DNA from: Candidatus Terraquivivens ruidianensis
GTDB taxonomy: Archaea > Thermoproteota > Nitrososphaeria_A > Caldarchaeales > Wolframiiraptoraceae
Assembly: GCA_023267975.1 (NCBI GenBank)
Contig: JALNLA010000001.1
Span: forward strand, 1 to 64,000
DNA length: 64,000 nt
Reading direction: 5' to 3'
Every line of letters starts with the position of its first letter. The first letter of the stretch is position 1. The notes under the pieces are model-generated. The model had not been told where the DNA came from, searched no databases, and saw only the letters and a list, made by a program, of their open reading frames with translations. Position numbers and translations under genes: made by a program. Shown one piece after another: positions 50,761 through 59,620 of the stretch.

Positions 50761-51338
50761 AGGTTCTTATCATAGATAACTACGATTCATTCGTTTACAA
50801 CCTGGTCCAGTACATCGGCGAATTGGGCAGCAGACCCATTGTGTACAGAAACGATGAAATAACTTTAGAGCGTGCTAGAATGCTGGAGCCTGATAGGATA
50901 ATCGTATCACCAGGCCCTGGACATCCCCAAGACCCGAAGTACGTCGGTTCATGTATCAAGATAATCAAAGAGCTAGGCCCTAAGATACCTACGCTCGGCG
51001 TTTGCTTAGGACATCAGAGCATAATCTACGCTTTTGGTGGTAAAATCGTAAGGGCAAAAAGGCTCATGCATGGAAAGACCAGCCTTATCAAGCACGATGG
51101 CATGGGTCTGTTCAGAAACGTCAGTAACCCTCTAAAGGTTGCCCGATACCACTCCCTCTGCGGGGATAAAGAGTCCCTGCCCCCATGCCTCATAATTACG
51201 GCTGAATCGATTGATGACTATGAAATCATGGGCGTTCGTCACGTAGAGTATCCCATAGAGGGCGTGCAGTTCCATCCCGAGTCTGTGATGAGTGAGGAAG
51301 GCAAGAAGATTCTGAAGAACTTCTTGGATGGTTTTTGA
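50757..51338 (+). CDS. trpG: Anthranilate synthase component II (glutamine amidotransferase)
   Basis: Class I glutaminase that supplies ammonia to TrpE. The 193-residue protein has IDNYDSFVYNLVQYIGELG, VSPGPGHPQDP, the nucleophile Cys in LGVCLGHQSI and the His-Glu pair in VQFHPESVMSEEG. ATG 50757 overlaps the trpE stop as ATGA. PabA-type p-aminobenzoate use is possible in principle, but the trp context decides. Confidence 0.95.
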   Translation: MKVLIIDNYDSFVYNLVQYIGELGSRPIVYRNDEITLERARMLEPDRIIVSPGPGHPQDPKYVGSCIKIIKELGPKIPTLGVCLGHQSIIYAFGGKIVRAKRLMHGKTSLIKHDGMGLFRNVSNPLKVARYHSLCGDKESLPPCLIITAESIDDYEIMGVRHVEYPIEGVQFHPESVMSEEGKKILKNFLDGF

Positions 51339-51339
51339 T

Positions 51340-52389
51340 ATGTTTGTAGAAATTCTTAGGAAGCTCGTTGAAGGTTACGACTTACGCTACGATGAAGCTG
51401 AGGGCGCTATGAGGTACATAATGGAGGGCAACGTTACTAACGCTCAGCTCGCAAGCTTTTTGACCGCCTTAAGGATAAAGGGTGAGACGACCATAGAGCT
51501 TACGGCTTTCGTAAAGGTTATGAAAGAATACTGTTGTAAGGTTAGACCTAAGATAAATGGAAGGCTTATAGATGTATGCGGAACTGGTAGCGATAGAATC
51601 AAAACCTTCAACATAAGCACGCTTGCGGCATTCGTGGTTGCTGGAGCAGGCGTCAAGGTAGCGAAGCATGGGAACAGGGCAGTATCTGGAAAGTGCGGCA
51701 GCGCCGATCTGCTCGAAATGTTTGGCTTAAGACTTGAGCAGGAGCCCAAATCGGTCGAAAGGGCTATCGAGGAGGTTGGCATAGGCTTCATGTATGCCCC
51801 GTATTTCCACCCGGCCATGAAGAACGCTCAGCAGGTAAGGAAGGAGATAGGGATAGGGACCGTGTTCAACCTTATCGGGCCGCTCGCTAACCCAGCTGAC
51901 GTAAATGCTCAGCTCTTGGGTATGTACGATGGTAAGATGGTAAGCACGTTGGTATATGTGATGATGAACTTAGGATGCGAGGAGGCCTTTGTCGTACACG
52001 GTCTTGACGGTTTGGATGAGGTATCAATAATAGGTAAAACAAGGGTCGCATGGTTAAGGGATAAGGATGTCAGGATGCTCGAGTTGATGCCAAGAGATTT
52101 CGGTGTCGAGTCCTGCAGACAGGAAGACCTAGAAATCAAAACACGGGAGGAGGCGGTACAGGTAGCTTTCATGGTTCTAAACGGCAACAGCGGTCCTAAA
52201 AAGAATGCTGTTTTAGTTAACGCTGCTTTGGGCATGATCTTAGGAGGGCTGGCGGACAACTTTCTGGAAGGTATGGAGCAGGCGAAGGAATCTTTGGACA
52301 GTGGTAGGGCATACAAAAAGTTAAAAGAGTTAGTGAAGCTCAGCGGTGACCCATCCAAGCTCGAAAGTGTGGAGGAGATGTATGGCTAA
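51340..52389 (+). CDS. trpD: Anthranilate phosphoribosyltransferase
   Basis: Joins PRPP to anthranilate. The 349-residue protein has the signature DVCGTGSDRIKTFNISTLAA with the PRPP glycine loop, VAKHGNRAVSGKCGSADLLE, and IGPLANPADVNAQLLGMYD. ATG 51340 is 1 bp after the trpG stop. ATG 51328 inside trpG would add four residues. Confidence 0.95.
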   Translation: MFVEILRKLVEGYDLRYDEAEGAMRYIMEGNVTNAQLASFLTALRIKGETTIELTAFVKVMKEYCCKVRPKINGRLIDVCGTGSDRIKTFNISTLAAFVVAGAGVKVAKHGNRAVSGKCGSADLLEMFGLRLEQEPKSVERAIEEVGIGFMYAPYFHPAMKNAQQVRKEIGIGTVFNLIGPLANPADVNAQLLGMYDGKMVSTLVYVMMNLGCEEAFVVHGLDGLDEVSIIGKTRVAWLRDKDVRMLELMPRDFGVESCRQEDLEIKTREEAVQVAFMVLNGNSGPKKNAVLVNAALGMILGGLADNFLEGMEQAKESLDSGRAYKKLKELVKLSGDPSKLESVEEMYG

Positions 52390-53176
52390 CTTCCTTAAAG
52401 TTTTGGTCGAAAAGGCTATCGACCATGCGAAGAGTGGTTACTATGATGTATCTTCTTCGGCAATATTTTCAAGATCTCAGAGTTTGAAGGATGCGATACT
52501 CGCTTGCAAGACCGTTCCCATCATAGCTGAACTGAAGCAGGCATCACCGACCATGGGAAAGCATGTTCATGGAGATGTCAAAGCCATGGCTAAGGCTATG
52601 GAACGCGGTGGAGCCATAGGCATATCGGTTTTGACGGAGCGTGAGTTCTTTGATGGCTCGTTAGAGAAGTTAAGGGTTGTCAGAGAAACCGTCAGCATAC
52701 CTATACTTATGAAAGACATAATTGTTAGCGTCGTGCAACTGGAGGCGGCATCGAAGCTAGGAGCGAGCGCGGTCCTCTTAATCAAGAAAGTTTACGACCA
52801 AAGAATGTGTGAGGAAAATTTAGATGACATGATAAAAACGGCTCACTCGTTAGGTCTCGAGGTACTTTTAGAGACGCATACCGAAGAAGAGTTTCTTTCG
52901 GGCATGGATACGGAGGCGGACGTTCTAGGGATAAACAACCGTGACTTGGAGACGCTAAAGGTCGACCTTGGTGTTTCTGAACGCATACTTACAAACGTAA
53001 AAGTCAAGCGTAAACCGATTGTATGCGAGAGTGGCATAAACAGCCCTGCCCAGGTTATTCTCCTGAAAAATCTTGGCGCGGACGCTTTCTTGGTCGGGAC
53101 GTTCATAATGACGTCCACGGATATCGAGGGAAGCGTAAGGGAGCTTGTGAGGGCTTATGACGTATGTCAGGGTTAA
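52382..53176 (+). CDS. trpC: Indole-3-glycerol phosphate synthase
   Basis: Ring closure to indole-3-glycerol phosphate by a TIM-barrel enzyme, 264 residues. Motifs are IIAELKQASPTMG (catalytic Glu-Leu-Lys), LMKDIIVSVVQLEAA, AVLLIKKV, EVLLETHTEEE, GINNRDLETLKVDL and ESGINSPAQV. The frame opens at 52346, but GGAGG 6 nt before ATG 52382 fixes the start. It overlaps trpD by 8 bp and trpF by 20 bp. Confidence 0.95.
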   Translation: MANFLKVLVEKAIDHAKSGYYDVSSSAIFSRSQSLKDAILACKTVPIIAELKQASPTMGKHVHGDVKAMAKAMERGGAIGISVLTEREFFDGSLEKLRVVRETVSIPILMKDIIVSVVQLEAASKLGASAVLLIKKVYDQRMCEENLDDMIKTAHSLGLEVLLETHTEEEFLSGMDTEADVLGINNRDLETLKVDLGVSERILTNVKVKRKPIVCESGINSPAQVILLKNLGADAFLVGTFIMTSTDIEGSVRELVRAYDVCQG

Positions 53177-53801
53177 AATCTGCGGCATAACGCGCGAGCA
53201 AGACTTAGCGGATGCTGTTGATGCTGGTGCTGATGCTGTGGGGTTCGTCGTGGCCTCGCCACTCTCGCCGAGAAATTTGACCTATGAAAGGGCTAAGGAG
53301 TTAATAAAGAAGGTGCCCGTGTTCGTGGATAGCGTGGTAGTAACTGTTATGGCGGATGTTGACGAGCTACTCAGAGTTTGTAATCTGCTTAGACCTTCTG
53401 CGCTACAGATACACAGTAACAATCTTTTGAATGCTGAAAAATTGCGGGATACGTTCCCTGACATTAAGTTAATAAAGGCGATTAACGTCCGTGAAGTCTC
53501 TGATGTTGAATATTTGAAGGGTTCGCTCAACGAATTCGACGCCTTACTGCTCGATTCTCTCGCCGGAGGATACGGTGGTCAAGGTAAGGTCCACGACTGG
53601 AAGATAAGCAGAAGGGCCGTTGAGTATCTTTACCCTAAGCCCGTGATACTCGCTGGCGGTCTAACACCTGAAAATGTGGAGGATGCTGTACGGAGCGTGA
53701 GGCCTTATGCCGTCGACGTATCATCTGGCGTAGAAACTAGTCCGGGGATAAAGGACAAAAAGAAGATTTTTGAATTCGTAAAGAATGCAAGGTGGCGTTG
53801 A
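53157..53801 (+). CDS. trpF: Phosphoribosylanthranilate isomerase
   Basis: Amadori rearrangement preceding TrpC. The 214-residue TIM barrel has VKICGITREQDL with the catalytic Cys, ADAVGFVVASPLSPR, LQIHSNN, ALLLDSLAGGYGGQGKVHDW with the catalytic Asp, and LAGGLTPENV. ATG 53157 lies within the end of trpC. Confidence 0.94.
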   Translation: MTYVRVKICGITREQDLADAVDAGADAVGFVVASPLSPRNLTYERAKELIKKVPVFVDSVVVTVMADVDELLRVCNLLRPSALQIHSNNLLNAEKLRDTFPDIKLIKAINVREVSDVEYLKGSLNEFDALLLDSLAGGYGGQGKVHDWKISRRAVEYLYPKPVILAGGLTPENVEDAVRSVRPYAVDVSSGVETSPGIKDKKKIFEFVKNARWR

Positions 53802-53807
53802 GGTCTG

Positions 53808-54575
53808 TTGAACATACAGGAAGTTACGAGAAAGAAGAAGTTTCTGATTGCTTACATGACTTTGGGGTATCCGACGCCTGACGCATTCATGGAATATTCT
53901 GACATACTAAAAAGTTCTGGTGCTGATATACTAGAGCTTGGCATACCACCGAAGATTGCTATCTATGATGGTACGAGCATAAGGCTATCTTACTGGAGGG
54001 TGAGGGAGCAGGGCATAGACAGGGATACGATGCTAGAAATCGCTGAAAGTGTTAGTGCAACAAAGATTCTTTTGTGCTATCTAAACACCGCCGGACGGTT
54101 GGCGGAGTTCATACACTCAGTCGCAAAGACTGGAGCTTCAGGTGCGCTCATACCGGATTTAGGCATGGTAGGTCCTGCGGCTTTAGAGGAATATACGAAA
54201 GCTTGCGATGCTGTACGTCTTGAAACGCTGTTCTTCGCAAACTATAATTATCCAGATAGCACGATCAAGATTATGGCGAGCTATAACCCTGCGTTCATCT
54301 ATATCGGGCTATCCTCGATTACAGGCGAGGTAGCTTACATAGAGCCAGTTAAGTCCATTACGAGGGCTAGGGGGTTAATCGGCGGCATACCTTTGGCGGC
54401 TGGTTTCGGTATAAGGGACTCATCCTATGCGAAGACGTTAGCAAGTATGGTTGACGGAATAGTCGTAGGCAGCGAGCTCGTCAACATAATAGAAGAGAAC
54501 GTCGCTACCGTCGCAAAGAGAAAGGTATCAGACTTTGTGATGTCGCTCAGGTCAGTTTTAGAGGATACATCCTAA
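53808..54575 (+). CDS. trpA: Tryptophan synthase alpha subunit, divergent
   Basis: Cleaves indole-3-glycerol phosphate to indole, normally passed to TrpB. The 255-residue TIM barrel keeps the catalytic Glu (LELGIPP) and, 11 residues later, the catalytic Asp (IYDGTSI). The loop between them, usually PFSDPLAD, is PPKIAIYD. That loop contacts the beta subunit in well-studied TrpAB. The phosphate-binding end AAGFGIRDSSYAKTL and DGIVVGSELV is normal. TTG 53808 follows GAGGT by 3 nt. No trpB lies in the operon or anywhere in this window. Confidence 0.85.
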   Translation: MNIQEVTRKKKFLIAYMTLGYPTPDAFMEYSDILKSSGADILELGIPPKIAIYDGTSIRLSYWRVREQGIDRDTMLEIAESVSATKILLCYLNTAGRLAEFIHSVAKTGASGALIPDLGMVGPAALEEYTKACDAVRLETLFFANYNYPDSTIKIMASYNPAFIYIGLSSITGEVAYIEPVKSITRARGLIGGIPLAAGFGIRDSSYAKTLASMVDGIVVGSELVNIIEENVATVAKRKVSDFVMSLRSVLEDTS

Positions 54576-55730: not shown

Positions 55731-55763
55731 AAATTTAATAAAGATTTTTTGGGATGCTGAGTG

Positions 55764-57212
55764 ATGGCCATGGAGGACCTTCTAAATTATGCCGTTGATT
55801 ATGCCATGAGGATGGGCGCTTCTTACGCAGAGGTAAGATATCAGTCGGATTCTTTCGAGGAATTCACGCTAAGGAACGGCGTGTCCGAGGCGCCCGCTTT
55901 CGGTACGAGTAGGGGTCTATCCGTACGGGTCATCGTTTCTGGCTCTATGGGGTTTGCGTCAACAAACTTGACCAAAAAAGCAGACGTAAGGGACATCGTT
56001 GGTAGGGCCATCACAGTCGCAAAAGCCTCATCAAAAGTTGTCAAGAACGCTATCAGAATGGTTGACGCGAAGTCCACGAGGGCAGAGTGTATAGTTAAAC
56101 CCAGAGTAAAGCCCGAGTTCGTCGACCCCGATTCGAAGGTCGAGCTGCTTAAGGAGGTTGACGGGAGAAGCATCGCATCGGCTTCCCGCGGCGACGTAAA
56201 GTTTCCCATGAGGATGCTCAGCGTCGGCCACTGGATAGCCGAGAAGCATATAGTTACGTCTGAGGGGTCGAACGTCCATAGCCGCATACCAAGGGTCATG
56301 TTCTCCTACATGTTGACGGTGGCAAAGGCTGGAAAGGGAACGACTCAAAGATTCGAGAACATGGGCGAGTCCGGAGGCTGGGAAAGGGTTGAGAGATGGG
56401 TCCTTGATGAAAGGGTTCCGGAGGAGGTGGGCAAGCTCGCTAAAATTCTGACGGAGGCTGTAGAGCCACCTACGGACACGCTCGACGTCGTGCTAGGGCC
56501 TGAGCTTGTGGGAATAATATGTCACGAGTCTGCTGGACATCCTTTAGAAGCTGATAGGGTCTTAGGAAGGGAGGCAGCGCAGGGTGGCGAGACCTACGTA
56601 ACCCGGGAGCTTATTGGCGAATACATAGGTTCGGAGCACGTTACCATCGTAGACGATCCGAGACTGCCGAACTCCTTTGGCTACTACCTTTATGATGACG
56701 AGTGCGTCGAGGCTAGGGAGAGGGTACTCATCGATAGGGGGAAGATAAACGAGCTACTGCATAACAGGGAGACCGCCGCTGAGTTTGACACGTTAAGCAA
56801 CGGTTCCTCGAGGGCGAGCTTTTACGGCGTCGAGCCCATAGTACGTATGGCTAATACTTACATGAGACCTGGTGACTACTCGCTCGAGGAGTTGATAGAA
56901 GGTGTAAGGTACGGCGTCTACATAAGCTCTTACATGGAGTGGAACATCGATGATAGGAGATGGAACCAAAGGTACGTCGGGTTGGAGGCATACCTGATAA
57001 AGAACGGCAGACTCGAGTCCATGCTAAGAAACCCAACCATCGAGCTGACGACGAAGGGCCTTTATTCGTCCGTCGACGCCGTCGGTAAGGATATTAGGTT
57101 TTACGCAGGGTATTGTGGCAAGAGCGAGCCCATGCAGAGCATGCCGGTTTGGTTCGGCGGTCCGGCCATAAGGCTCAGGGGCATAAGGCTCGGCAGATCG
57201 CCCGTTTCTTAA
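55764..57212 (+). CDS. tldD: TldD-family metalloprotease
   Basis: Zinc protease subunit that, with TldE, degrades unfolded peptides or trims modified peptides. The 482-residue protein carries the metal motif HESAGHPLEADRVLGREA (HExxxH), the third-ligand region, and the conserved blocks GTSRGLSVRVI, NRETAAEF and MRPGDYSLEELIEGVRYGVY. TATA element AAATTTAATAAAG lies about 25 nt before ATG 55764; GTG 55761 and ATG 55770 are alternatives. The inactive partner TldE is not seen in the window. Confidence 0.92.
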   Translation: MAMEDLLNYAVDYAMRMGASYAEVRYQSDSFEEFTLRNGVSEAPAFGTSRGLSVRVIVSGSMGFASTNLTKKADVRDIVGRAITVAKASSKVVKNAIRMVDAKSTRAECIVKPRVKPEFVDPDSKVELLKEVDGRSIASASRGDVKFPMRMLSVGHWIAEKHIVTSEGSNVHSRIPRVMFSYMLTVAKAGKGTTQRFENMGESGGWERVERWVLDERVPEEVGKLAKILTEAVEPPTDTLDVVLGPELVGIICHESAGHPLEADRVLGREAAQGGETYVTRELIGEYIGSEHVTIVDDPRLPNSFGYYLYDDECVEARERVLIDRGKINELLHNRETAAEFDTLSNGSSRASFYGVEPIVRMANTYMRPGDYSLEELIEGVRYGVYISSYMEWNIDDRRWNQRYVGLEAYLIKNGRLESMLRNPTIELTTKGLYSSVDAVGKDIRFYAGYCGKSEPMQSMPVWFGGPAIRLRGIRLGRSPVS

Positions 57213-57213
57213 G

Positions 57214-57223
57214 GTTTAAATAA
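57214..57223 (+). promoter_or_regulatory. TATA box of the AsnRS-like gene
   Basis: GTTTAAATAA directly after the tldD stop predicts transcription from about 57243. This supports translation from a non-standard codon just downstream (CTG 57252) rather than from the first GTG at 57423. Confidence 0.5.
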
Positions 57224-57251
57224 CGCCCGAGCATATATTGGAAAGGGTTCT

Positions 57252-58277
57252 CTGACAGAAAAAACAAAGTCCAGAGCCTCGGATAAGAGCCTACTTAAGA
57301 CTCTTAAAAATCGTTGGCTTCTTTTCAAAAGACCCGAGTTTACTGCTCTGGCCAAGGTAGAGGCCGCGCTGCTAAGGGGCGCTAGGAGATACTTTGAGAG
57401 CCAAGGCTTCAACGAGGTCGTCGTGCCCCACATAACGAAAGCAACCGGCGCTTGCGAGAACATGGCGACGATGTTTGAGCTCGACTACTTTGGCAGGAAG
57501 GCGTACCTTTCCCAGACTGGTCAACTGTATTTAGAGGCTTTAGTGCCCTCCTTAGAGAAGGTTTGGTGCGTGATACATAGCTTCAGGGCTGAGCCAGACG
57601 TTGACGAGAGACATTTGACGGAGTTCACACTGGTGGAGTTCGAGTTTCTCGGAAACCTTGAGCGGCTCCTCGAACACATCGAAAACACGATAGCAAGCAT
57701 GGTAAGCGAGGTCAAGCTTAGGTGTAGCGATTCGTTGGACATGCTCGGCATAGATGACGATGCGTTCGAGAAGGCCAAACCTCCGTACGTCAGGTTAACC
57801 TACACGAAAGCCGTCGAGCTACTCGGAGACCTTGGAGTTAAATGGGGCGACGACTTGAAGAGCTGGCACGAGAAGGAGCTCGTCAGAATGCTCGGCGATA
57901 GGCCTGTGTTAGTGACGCACTATCCCAAGGCCATAAAGTTCTTCAACATGCGGCAGAACGATTATGACCCCTATATCGTAAACAGCGTGGACCTACTCCT
58001 TCCGCACAGCGGTGAGGCTGTTGGTGGTGCAGAAAGGGAACATGAGTACGAGAGGCTGAGGCAAAGGTTGATGGAGTCGACGATGCTCAAGCAGTTATTA
58101 GAAAAGGGTGGCGACGTGAGCGACTTCGATTGGTACCTCGAGGTGTACAGGAATCAAGGAGGCAAACTTCACTCCGGAGCCGGTATAGGCCTTAATAGGG
58201 TGACGCAGTTCGTCCTCAGCGTAGACGATATAAGGGCCTCGACTCTGTATCCTATGAACAAAGAGATGGTGTACTGA
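57252..58277 (+). CDS. AsnRS-like class II synthetase core without anticodon-binding domain
   Basis: Class II catalytic domain of the Asp/Asn-tRNA synthetase group. Motif 1 region: RYFESQGFNEVVVPHITKAT; then GACENMATMF; motif 2: HSFRAEPDVDERHLTEFTL; motif 3: GAGIGLNRVTQFVL. The N-terminal OB-fold that recognises the tRNA anticodon is absent: only about 20 residues precede the core. Comparable archaeal proteins act as asparagine synthetase (AS-AR). The first standard start is GTG 57423, which would delete half of motif 1. In the same frame a homologous stretch of 57 codons runs back to CTG 57252, about 9 nt after the predicted transcript start, so I suggest CTG (or ATT 57237) initiation. The gene overlaps the following one by 1 bp. 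Confidence 0.78.
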   Translation: MTEKTKSRASDKSLLKTLKNRWLLFKRPEFTALAKVEAALLRGARRYFESQGFNEVVVPHITKATGACENMATMFELDYFGRKAYLSQTGQLYLEALVPSLEKVWCVIHSFRAEPDVDERHLTEFTLVEFEFLGNLERLLEHIENTIASMVSEVKLRCSDSLDMLGIDDDAFEKAKPPYVRLTYTKAVELLGDLGVKWGDDLKSWHEKELVRMLGDRPVLVTHYPKAIKFFNMRQNDYDPYIVNSVDLLLPHSGEAVGGAEREHEYERLRQRLMESTMLKQLLEKGGDVSDFDWYLEVYRNQGGKLHSGAGIGLNRVTQFVLSVDDIRASTLYPMNKEMVY

Positions 58278-59620
58278 TGTCGTTCTTGAGAAGGTATGCC
58301 GAGCTTAGGAGACAAAAGGGTAGCATAATGTGCATCTCGCTGGATGTGAAGAGGAAAGGGGAATCAAGGAGGGAGTATGTTGAGAGGTTGGAGCAGCTCG
58401 TGAAGCGGACGGCGCCGTATGCCGTAGCCTTCAAAGTGAACGAGAACTACACCAGACACCTAAGCATAGAAGACCACCAAGAGATGACGCAACTTTGTAG
58501 GTCGCTCGGAACGTTGACCATATACGACTGCAAGCTTTCAGATATAACGAGTACGGTTACGACGGGTATCGGCATAGTTAAGGACATGGGCTACGACGGT
58601 CTCACGGTAAACCCGATATTCGGGAACCTCTACCAAATGACAGATGCAGCTCACGGCTTGGGACTTGCCGTGTTCTCTGTTACCCTGCCATCAAGCCCCG
58701 AGTCCATAAGGCTGTTCAAGTTAAACATCAACGGTAGAAGGCTTTTTGAAATCCTTGCTGAGGATGCAAGGGCTTCGAGAACGGACGGCCTCGTCGTCAG
58801 CGCAACGGAAACGGCTTCGGCAGACGACATAAGCACCATAAGGAACGCTGTTGGTGAGGAGCCCGTAATCCTTTTCCCAGGTATAGGTGCACAGAGCGGC
58901 GACTTGGAGAAGGCAATCGTTTATGGCGGCTGGAACGTATTATTAAATGTTGGCAGGTCCATAGTCGAGTCTCCTGAGCCAGAAAAAGCCGCTGCTGAAT
59001 ACAGAGGCACCTTAACCGATGCCTGGATACGCATAAACGCTGCCCAAGAGATGCTCAATACTCCCGGCGTCTATCGCTACTCGCCAGACAAGCCCTTCGT
59101 ACTCTCGAGCGGAAAGGAAAGCGACTACTACGTAGACGTCAGAGCCCTTTATTCGTATCCAGAGCCGAGAGGCAGGATAGCCGAACTGATGCTGGTGAAG
59201 ATAAGCTTGGAGGGAAACGTGGATGCTGACAAAGTGGCCACGACGGAGACGGCTGGCATACCCATAGCATCGATAGTCGCCGACAGGTTATGCAAGGGTC
59301 TAGTGTACGTCAGGCATAAGGAGAAGGGCTATGGTACTGGAAAAAGGGTCGAGGGCGTGGTGCAGCATGGCGAAAGTATAATTTGCATCGACGACCTAAC
59401 TACGACGGGCGAGACCGCGGAGGCTTGTGTCAGAGCTGTGTCGGAGCTAGGTGGGAAAGTACTTACGTACTATGTCGTGTTCGACAGGGAAGAAGGTGCG
59501 GCGGAGAGGCTAAGGAGCGTCGGCGTGAGGTTGTGCTACCTTGCCAACACGTCCACGCTCAGAGGTCTCATGAGAAAAAAGACGCTTAAAGGCATAGATG
59601 ACCGGAAAACCTATATGTAG
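58277..59620 (+). CDS. pyrFE: Bifunctional OMP decarboxylase - orotate phosphoribosyltransferase (PyrF-PyrE fusion)
   Basis: Last two steps of UMP synthesis in one chain of 447 residues. Residues 1 to about 245 are OMP decarboxylase: ISLDVKRKG, AFKVNENY and the catalytic DCKLSDITST. From about residue 255 follows orotate phosphoribosyltransferase: VLSSGKESDYYVDVR, TTETAGIPIASIVAD, YVRHKEKGYGTGKRVEG and the PRPP loop IICIDDLTTTGETAEA. The order is the reverse of the animal/plant UMP synthase. The decarboxylase sequence also departs from typical archaeal PyrF. ATG 58277 overlaps the previous stop as TGATG. Confidence 0.9.
   Translation: MSFLRRYAELRRQKGSIMCISLDVKRKGESRREYVERLEQLVKRTAPYAVAFKVNENYTRHLSIEDHQEMTQLCRSLGTLTIYDCKLSDITSTVTTGIGIVKDMGYDGLTVNPIFGNLYQMTDAAHGLGLAVFSVTLPSSPESIRLFKLNINGRRLFEILAEDARASRTDGLVVSATETASADDISTIRNAVGEEPVILFPGIGAQSGDLEKAIVYGGWNVLLNVGRSIVESPEPEKAAAEYRGTLTDAWIRINAAQEMLNTPGVYRYSPDKPFVLSSGKESDYYVDVRALYSYPEPRGRIAELMLVKISLEGNVDADKVATTETAGIPIASIVADRLCKGLVYVRHKEKGYGTGKRVEGVVQHGESIICIDDLTTTGETAEACVRAVSELGGKVLTYYVVFDREEGAAERLRSVGVRLCYLANTSTLRGLMRKKTLKGIDDRKTYM

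Follow-up and report, generated by a model that had tools for sequence, protein, structure and literature searches.

A scattered archaeal family of stand-alone AsnRS-type cores with an apparently non-canonical start in some members and a recurrent pyrimidine-gene neighbourhood

Introduction

Among aminoacyl-tRNA synthetase (aaRS) cores that lack a tRNA domain, some have proved to act in biosynthesis (AsnA), others in regulation (HisZ) or in protein modification (EpmA). The locus described here raises the question of what such a core, of AsnRS-like type, does directly in front of a pyrF-pyrE fusion in Candidatus Terraquivivens ruidianensis, and how it is translated from a frame in which ATG, GTG and TTG are missing before the conserved region. 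A further archaeal Asx lineage, with invariant active-site changes of its own and with pyrimidine operons around it, points to a reaction or a mode of control that has not been described. That canonical starts are missing from several unrelated assemblies offers a concrete case in which non-canonical initiation by archaea can be tested, and pipelines that begin a gene at the first ATG/GTG/TTG would remove motif 1 from this AsnRS-like gene.

Results

Position and domain content of the AsnRS-like gene

The AsnRS-like frame lies on the + strand at 57213-58277 of the window, the whole 64,000-nt stretch of DNA that was analysed, between tldD and the pyrF-pyrE fusion (Table 1). It opens at the codon behind the tldD stop (TAA, 57210-57212) and runs for 354 codons to TGA 58275-58277 with no internal stop. 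The same frame is present in the genome assembly (G000:C1:57294-58274, 100%), and it is thus no artefact of the window. Tryptophan biosynthesis genes (trpD, trpC, trpF and trpA), named from their translated sequences, are located upstream at 51328-54575.

Table 1. Coordinates of the AsnRS-like gene, its conserved segments and its neighbours in the window
Feature	Position	Strand	Remark
tldD, upstream neighbour	55761..57212	+	ORF list and profile searches
TATA-like box TTTAAAT	57215..57221	+	directly 3' of the tldD stop; TATA-like boxes at corresponding distances in homologues
GGG of the TATA-anchored element	57245..57247	+	AAGGGTTCT in the window, GCGCGGGTTCAT or GTGTGGGTC in relatives; just 5' of the start candidate
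OB-less AsnRS-like gene	57252..58277	+	341 aa from the best start candidate, CTG57252; the open frame itself from 57213
TGACEN, flipping-loop region	57444..57461	+	Glu69 kept, Asn70 family-specific; E and N in 32/32
QTGQLYLE, side-chain pocket	57513..57536	+	Leu94 (32/32); Lys there in AspRS 3/4 and AS-AR 5/5
Motif 2, SFRAEPDVDERHLTEFTLVEFE	57579..57644	+	Asp118 and Leu127 family-specific (family alignment)
KFFNM	57936..57950	+	Asn232 in 32/32; Tyr in 15/15 AsnRS/AspRS/AS-AR
GEAVGGAERE	58011..58040	+	Glu255 (Mg site by analogy) and Arg262 invariant
Motif 3, HSGAGIGLNR	58170..58199	+	Arg316 invariant; Asn315 in place of Glu
3' end of the gene	58216..58276	+	counterpart of relics in four sister species with the rest deleted
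pyrF-pyrE fusion	58277..59620	+	ATG 58277 overlaps the stop of the AsnRS-like gene (TGATG)

When the 341-aa protein was compared with Pfam, PF00152 matched residues 17-337 at 3e-49, covering profile positions 5-308 of 308; it was the sole Pfam match, and neither an OB-fold nor any other Pfam family was matched. Class II motifs 1-3 are present together with the motif-2 Arg and the motif-3 Arg. An earlier sequence-only reading had described an Asx-type core with motifs 1-3 and no OB-fold, which the full-profile match and the alignment confirm, and a fused OB-fold looked for in the homologues was not found. While an AsnRS has an N-terminal OB-fold anticodon domain, the 354 available codons hold PF00152 only. 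Against NCBIfam, the protein reached 231 bits with NF003037 (cut-off 414) and 225 with TIGR00457 (342.6) for AsnRS, 147.6 bits with NF005052 (cut-off 368) for asparagine synthetase A, and a score far below the cut-off for nondiscriminating AspRS.

The AlphaFold model (pLDDT 85.9, with residues 1-7 disordered) found its best fold match in AsnRS with Asn-adenylate (1x54, TM 0.84). This archaeal AsnRS from Pyrococcus horikoshii is the best match by sequence as well as by fold, and the core fold, the catalytic residues and the absence of the Lys that marks Asp binding are common to both. However, the AsnRS-like protein lacks the OB-fold, falls in a separate clade, has VDx in the motif-2 loop where AsnRS has RTR, carries Asn in place of Tyr232 and contains an insertion of about 9 residues before the WYL helix. 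The AS-ARs (3p8t/1nnh; NF005052, PRK06462) are likewise archaeal proteins of about 330 aa whose class II Asx core has no anticodon domain, and in this architecture the AsnRS-like protein agrees with them. In contrast, it lies in another clade and far below the family cut-off, with Leu94 and TGACEN at the places where AS-AR has Lys and TDPGIRG; the AS-AR of the same genome (L003) clusters with other AS-ARs. HisZ, EpmA/PoxA and other aaRS paralogues without a tRNA domain followed the same evolutionary route, in which the core was kept, although HisZ and EpmA/PoxA derive from HisRS or LysRS and have other substrate pockets.

A rare archaeal family of its own

The genome (1.3 Mb, 8 contigs, 97% complete) encodes four Asx-type proteins, namely the AsnRS-like core, a full AsnRS of 439 aa, an AspRS of 441 aa and an AS-AR-like protein of 328 aa. 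The genome search that had been proposed for AsnRS and AspRS thus found both, plus the AS-AR-like protein, and with these three in place translation and Asn synthesis should not need a fourth copy. OB-less relatives with 43-64% identity occur in Bathyarchaeota, Thaumarchaeota, Thermoproteota, Aenigmarchaeota, Micrarchaeota and Woesearchaeota. The family is rare, being found in one of 44 genomes of the window's class, in 9 of 257 of the Bathyarchaeota class and in 7 of 300 of one Thaumarchaeota class. Thirty-two members form one tight clade (SH-aLRT 100) apart from AsnRS, AspRS and AS-AR, in a quick tree with a midpoint root that does not settle the sister group. Viral contigs held no relative of the gene, and viral carriage was rejected on this ground. 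Open-access papers cover AS-A/AS-AR, HisZ, EpmA and other aaRS paralogues (PMC9437257, PMC3532385), and no description of the present family was found among them. Judged by its sequence, the AsnRS-like gene is a member of a previously unnamed, scattered archaeal family of stand-alone AsnRS-type cores.

Active site and likely substrate

In the alignment, R112, E114 and H121 of motif 2, E255, R262, R316 of motif 3 and E69 of the flipping loop are conserved in 32/32 members; by their roles in AspRS and AsnRS, these residues are expected to serve ATP and the adenylate. Position 94 is Leu in all 32, while AspRS has Lys in 3/4 (Arg in the fourth), AS-AR has Lys in 5/5, as is also visible in the AS-AR/AspRS alignments, and AsnRSs vary between Leu, Gln, Val and Ala. 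This makes the pocket similar to that of AsnRS, and by this analogy an Asn-like substrate appears the likelier one. The AERE motif is common to the family and AS-AR. The residues N70, D118, L127, F230, N232 (where all 15 sequences used for comparison have Tyr) and Q319 are invariant in this family only, which marks it as an enzyme in its own right and not a shortened AsnRS. Asparagine synthesis, which had been suggested for this core from the letters, is left without support by the replacement of the Asp-marking Lys with Leu in 32/32, by the different clade and by the AS-AR already in the genome.

Translation start and the TATA-anchored element

The first in-frame ATG/GTG/TTG of the gene, GTG57423, is placed inside motif 1, 57 codons past CTG57252. 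Since homologues align with the codons on its 5' side, which encode the motif-1 helix and RRYFESQGFNEVVVPHITKATGACEN, these codons are coding sequence and GTG57423 cannot be the start; a homologue starting at this position was looked for, and none was found. ORF reading and homologue alignment thus bear out that coding extends 5' of GTG57423 with no standard start behind the tldD stop, and the TATA box lies where the sequence-only reading had implied it. CTG57252 is located 37 nt behind this box, and Bathyarchaeota and others have an NTG there at 33-39 nt, which is GTG in L038, L039, L040 and L090, TTG in L035, L036, L042, L043 and L092, and ATG in L091. An ATG or TTG stands just 5' of that site in L084 and L085, a GTG stands on it in L156, and some DPANN members have an ordinary ATG directly before the core. 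The Thaumarchaeota L041, L045, L086 and L158 have no in-frame ATG/GTG/TTG from the predicted transcription start to the core. The Thaumarchaeal leader behind the element shows 15-37% amino acid identity versus 73-81% in the core and no clear codon periodicity; with conservation this poor, translation may leave out part of the leader and start nearer the core. Based on these observations, non-canonical initiation of some kind is probable for the window gene. For the proposed CTG initiation, CTG57252 is the best candidate and slightly favoured, with the exact start left uncertain by the leader. A +1/-1 frameshift from an out-of-frame NTG near the transcription start was rejected, because the offsets vary between members and L041 and L045 have no such codon.

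All the members named above carry a short element, GYGYGGGTY, and in most of them 31-33 nt separate its GGG from the first TATA-box base (spacing counted by eye). The window has its most divergent version, with GGG at 30-32 and otherwise only GGGTT matching. The element reads GCGCGGGTTCAT in L041, L045, L085 and L086, GCGCGGGTTCAC in L158, GTGCGGGTTCTC in L156 and GCGTGGGTTTTT in L084. Its third codon positions are conserved while the first and second vary by transitions, indicating that it is constrained as nucleotides. In four genomes the 12-mer GCGCGGGTTCAT occurs once per genome, before the AsnRS-like gene, which led us to reject a regulon; a fifth match (G420) lies within an unrelated frame. 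Some Bathyarchaeota can fold a GGGUC-loop-GACCC hairpin around the start, but a conserved RNA hairpin was rejected, since z-scores range from -1.9 to +1.1 and the window and Thaumarchaeota do not have this fold in common.

Loss of the gene in sister species

In four sister species the AsnRS-like gene is absent from an otherwise conserved gene order, tldD-pyrFE-pdcd5, with about 79-87% identity. What remains of the gene in their short tldD-pyrFE gaps is its final 45-60 nt (L136-L139), and none of 500 shuffles matched as well; G003 has a possible, weak trace of its 5' side. These relics indicate that the genus ancestor most likely had the gene and that the sisters lost it, and a new insertion in the window species was accordingly rejected. 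The 283-nt gap of G004 contains a frame ending IRASTLYPTNWEERV, with unexplained sequence before it. Third codon positions of pyrFE differ by 40-42% between the window species and its sisters. The window copy nevertheless has no stop and no frameshift, keeps 61/61 family invariants, and has an end branch in the tree similar to those of its relatives.

Pyrimidine-gene neighbourhood

Linkage to pyrimidine genes, either abutting or near pyrE, pyrF, pyrK or pyrD, recurs in four classes. In the window the stop of the AsnRS-like gene overlaps the start of pyrFE. The gene is first in a cluster with pyrE, pyrD and pyrF, in this order, in Thaumarchaeota L041 and L161, and is divergent and adjoins pyrE in L094, L095, L096 and L162 (Thaumarchaeota). 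L104 has pyrF first, then a 257-aa protein with no Pfam match that is read as PyrK by sequence resemblance, and then the AsnRS-like gene. In Bathyarchaeota, pyrF is about two genes away in L038 and L100 and close by in L039 and L040. No pyrimidine gene was found among the neighbours probed in L042, L043, L045, L097-L099, L101-L103, L105 and L106. Most DPANN holders gave no pyrC match and have regulators, including TrmB or HTH-like ones, beside the gene in place of pyrimidine genes, and the pyrimidine link is therefore not universal. L051-L053 have a TrmB regulator family member beside the gene, and in L046, L047, L049, L050 and L055 it adjoins a conserved protein of about 280 aa that looks TrmB-like by eye and is HTH-like in its N-terminal region. 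HTH_3 and DUF72 proteins are found 3' of the gene in five Bathyarchaeal loci (L038:7097-7861, L039, L040, L043 and L100).

The window genome has pyrB, pyrI and pyrC, and pyrF and pyrE lie within the window, so that no tested pyrimidine step is missing and the AsnRS-like gene replaces none of them. Replacement of ATCase was rejected, as pyrB and pyrI are present and 86-89% identical to those of a sister genome, and so was replacement of dihydroorotase through activation of the beta-carboxyl of carbamoyl-Asp, as pyrC is present in this genome and in most non-DPANN holders.

Discussion

The family combines an intact, conserved class II core without a tRNA domain, a clade of its own, retained adenylation residues and clustering with orotate-to-UMP genes in several lineages. 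Our leading interpretation, held tentatively and with slightly less than even confidence, is a functional gene for a tRNA-independent adenylate-forming enzyme, which is predicted to act on an Asn-like substrate and to be linked to pyrimidine synthesis. The strongest rival, although we consider it unlikely, is a non-catalytic or sensing subunit that binds Asn or Asn-adenylate and controls one of the pyrimidine enzymes, for example the phosphoribosyltransferase PyrE. The pairing of the gene directly with pyrE in the window and in Thaumarchaeota, the absence of a tRNA domain and the presence of all tested pyrimidine steps agree with such a role. HisZ, the corresponding HisRS paralogue, regulates the phosphoribosyltransferase HisG and has no adenylation activity (PMC9437257), whereas the AsnRS-like family keeps the full set of adenylation residues, and its DPANN members lack pyrimidine neighbours and mostly pyrC. 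An asparagine synthetase of AS-A/AS-AR type, using Asp, NH3 and ATP, is less likely still: the common architecture, the AERE motif and the weak NF005052 match speak for it, but the clade and Leu94 argue against it, as does the AS-AR-like protein that the window genome, like several other holders, already has.

The remaining two explanations concern the start of the window gene. An ordinary gene whose start only looks odd through an assembly indel would need one extra base before 57253, which would put TTG57238 in frame, 23 nt behind the TATA box and near the in-frame ATG/TTG of L084 and L085. However, the longest run before 57253 is at most three, and four other homologues from separate assemblies also have no canonical start, which makes sequencing error alone improbable, about as doubtful as the synthetase. 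A start codon lost by mutation, as in an early pseudogene, would parallel the gene loss in the four sisters and fit the missing canonical start, but 354 intact codons, no broken invariant among 61 and an ordinary end branch argue against decay and leave this explanation very improbable. Both forms of the earlier suggestion, a start codon lost by mutation and one missing through sequencing error, are therefore weakened.

If the gene encodes the predicted adenylate-forming enzyme, it would bind ATP and asparagine, or an Asn-like amide, and form an acyl-adenylate. The acyl group might then be passed to an acceptor other than tRNA, or the adenylate be released as a signal, and either would serve pyrimidine metabolism and UMP synthesis in Thermoproteota-type archaea. 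Two features suggest that expression is kept low or regulated: start codons are repeatedly weak or absent, and an element specific to this gene sits where the mRNA is predicted to begin. A more specific proposal, which we regard as unlikely in its entirety, is that some members are translated without any canonical start under the conserved TATA-anchored 5'-terminal element, from CTG in the window and with no in-frame ATG/GTG/TTG behind the promoter in the four Thaumarchaeota, whose predicted mRNA 5' ends have GCGCGGGTTCA in common. On this proposal the family would encode a new Asn-type adenylating enzyme, independent of tRNA, through which amino acid supply is coupled to pyrimidine synthesis. 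On the leading interpretation, the window mRNA would begin near 57242, downstream of the TATA box, and translation would probably start at CTG57252, about 10 nt in, and be coupled to that of pyrFE via the TGATG overlap. This genus has PyrF and PyrE as a fusion, while outside it relatives carry two separate genes or a distant fusion.
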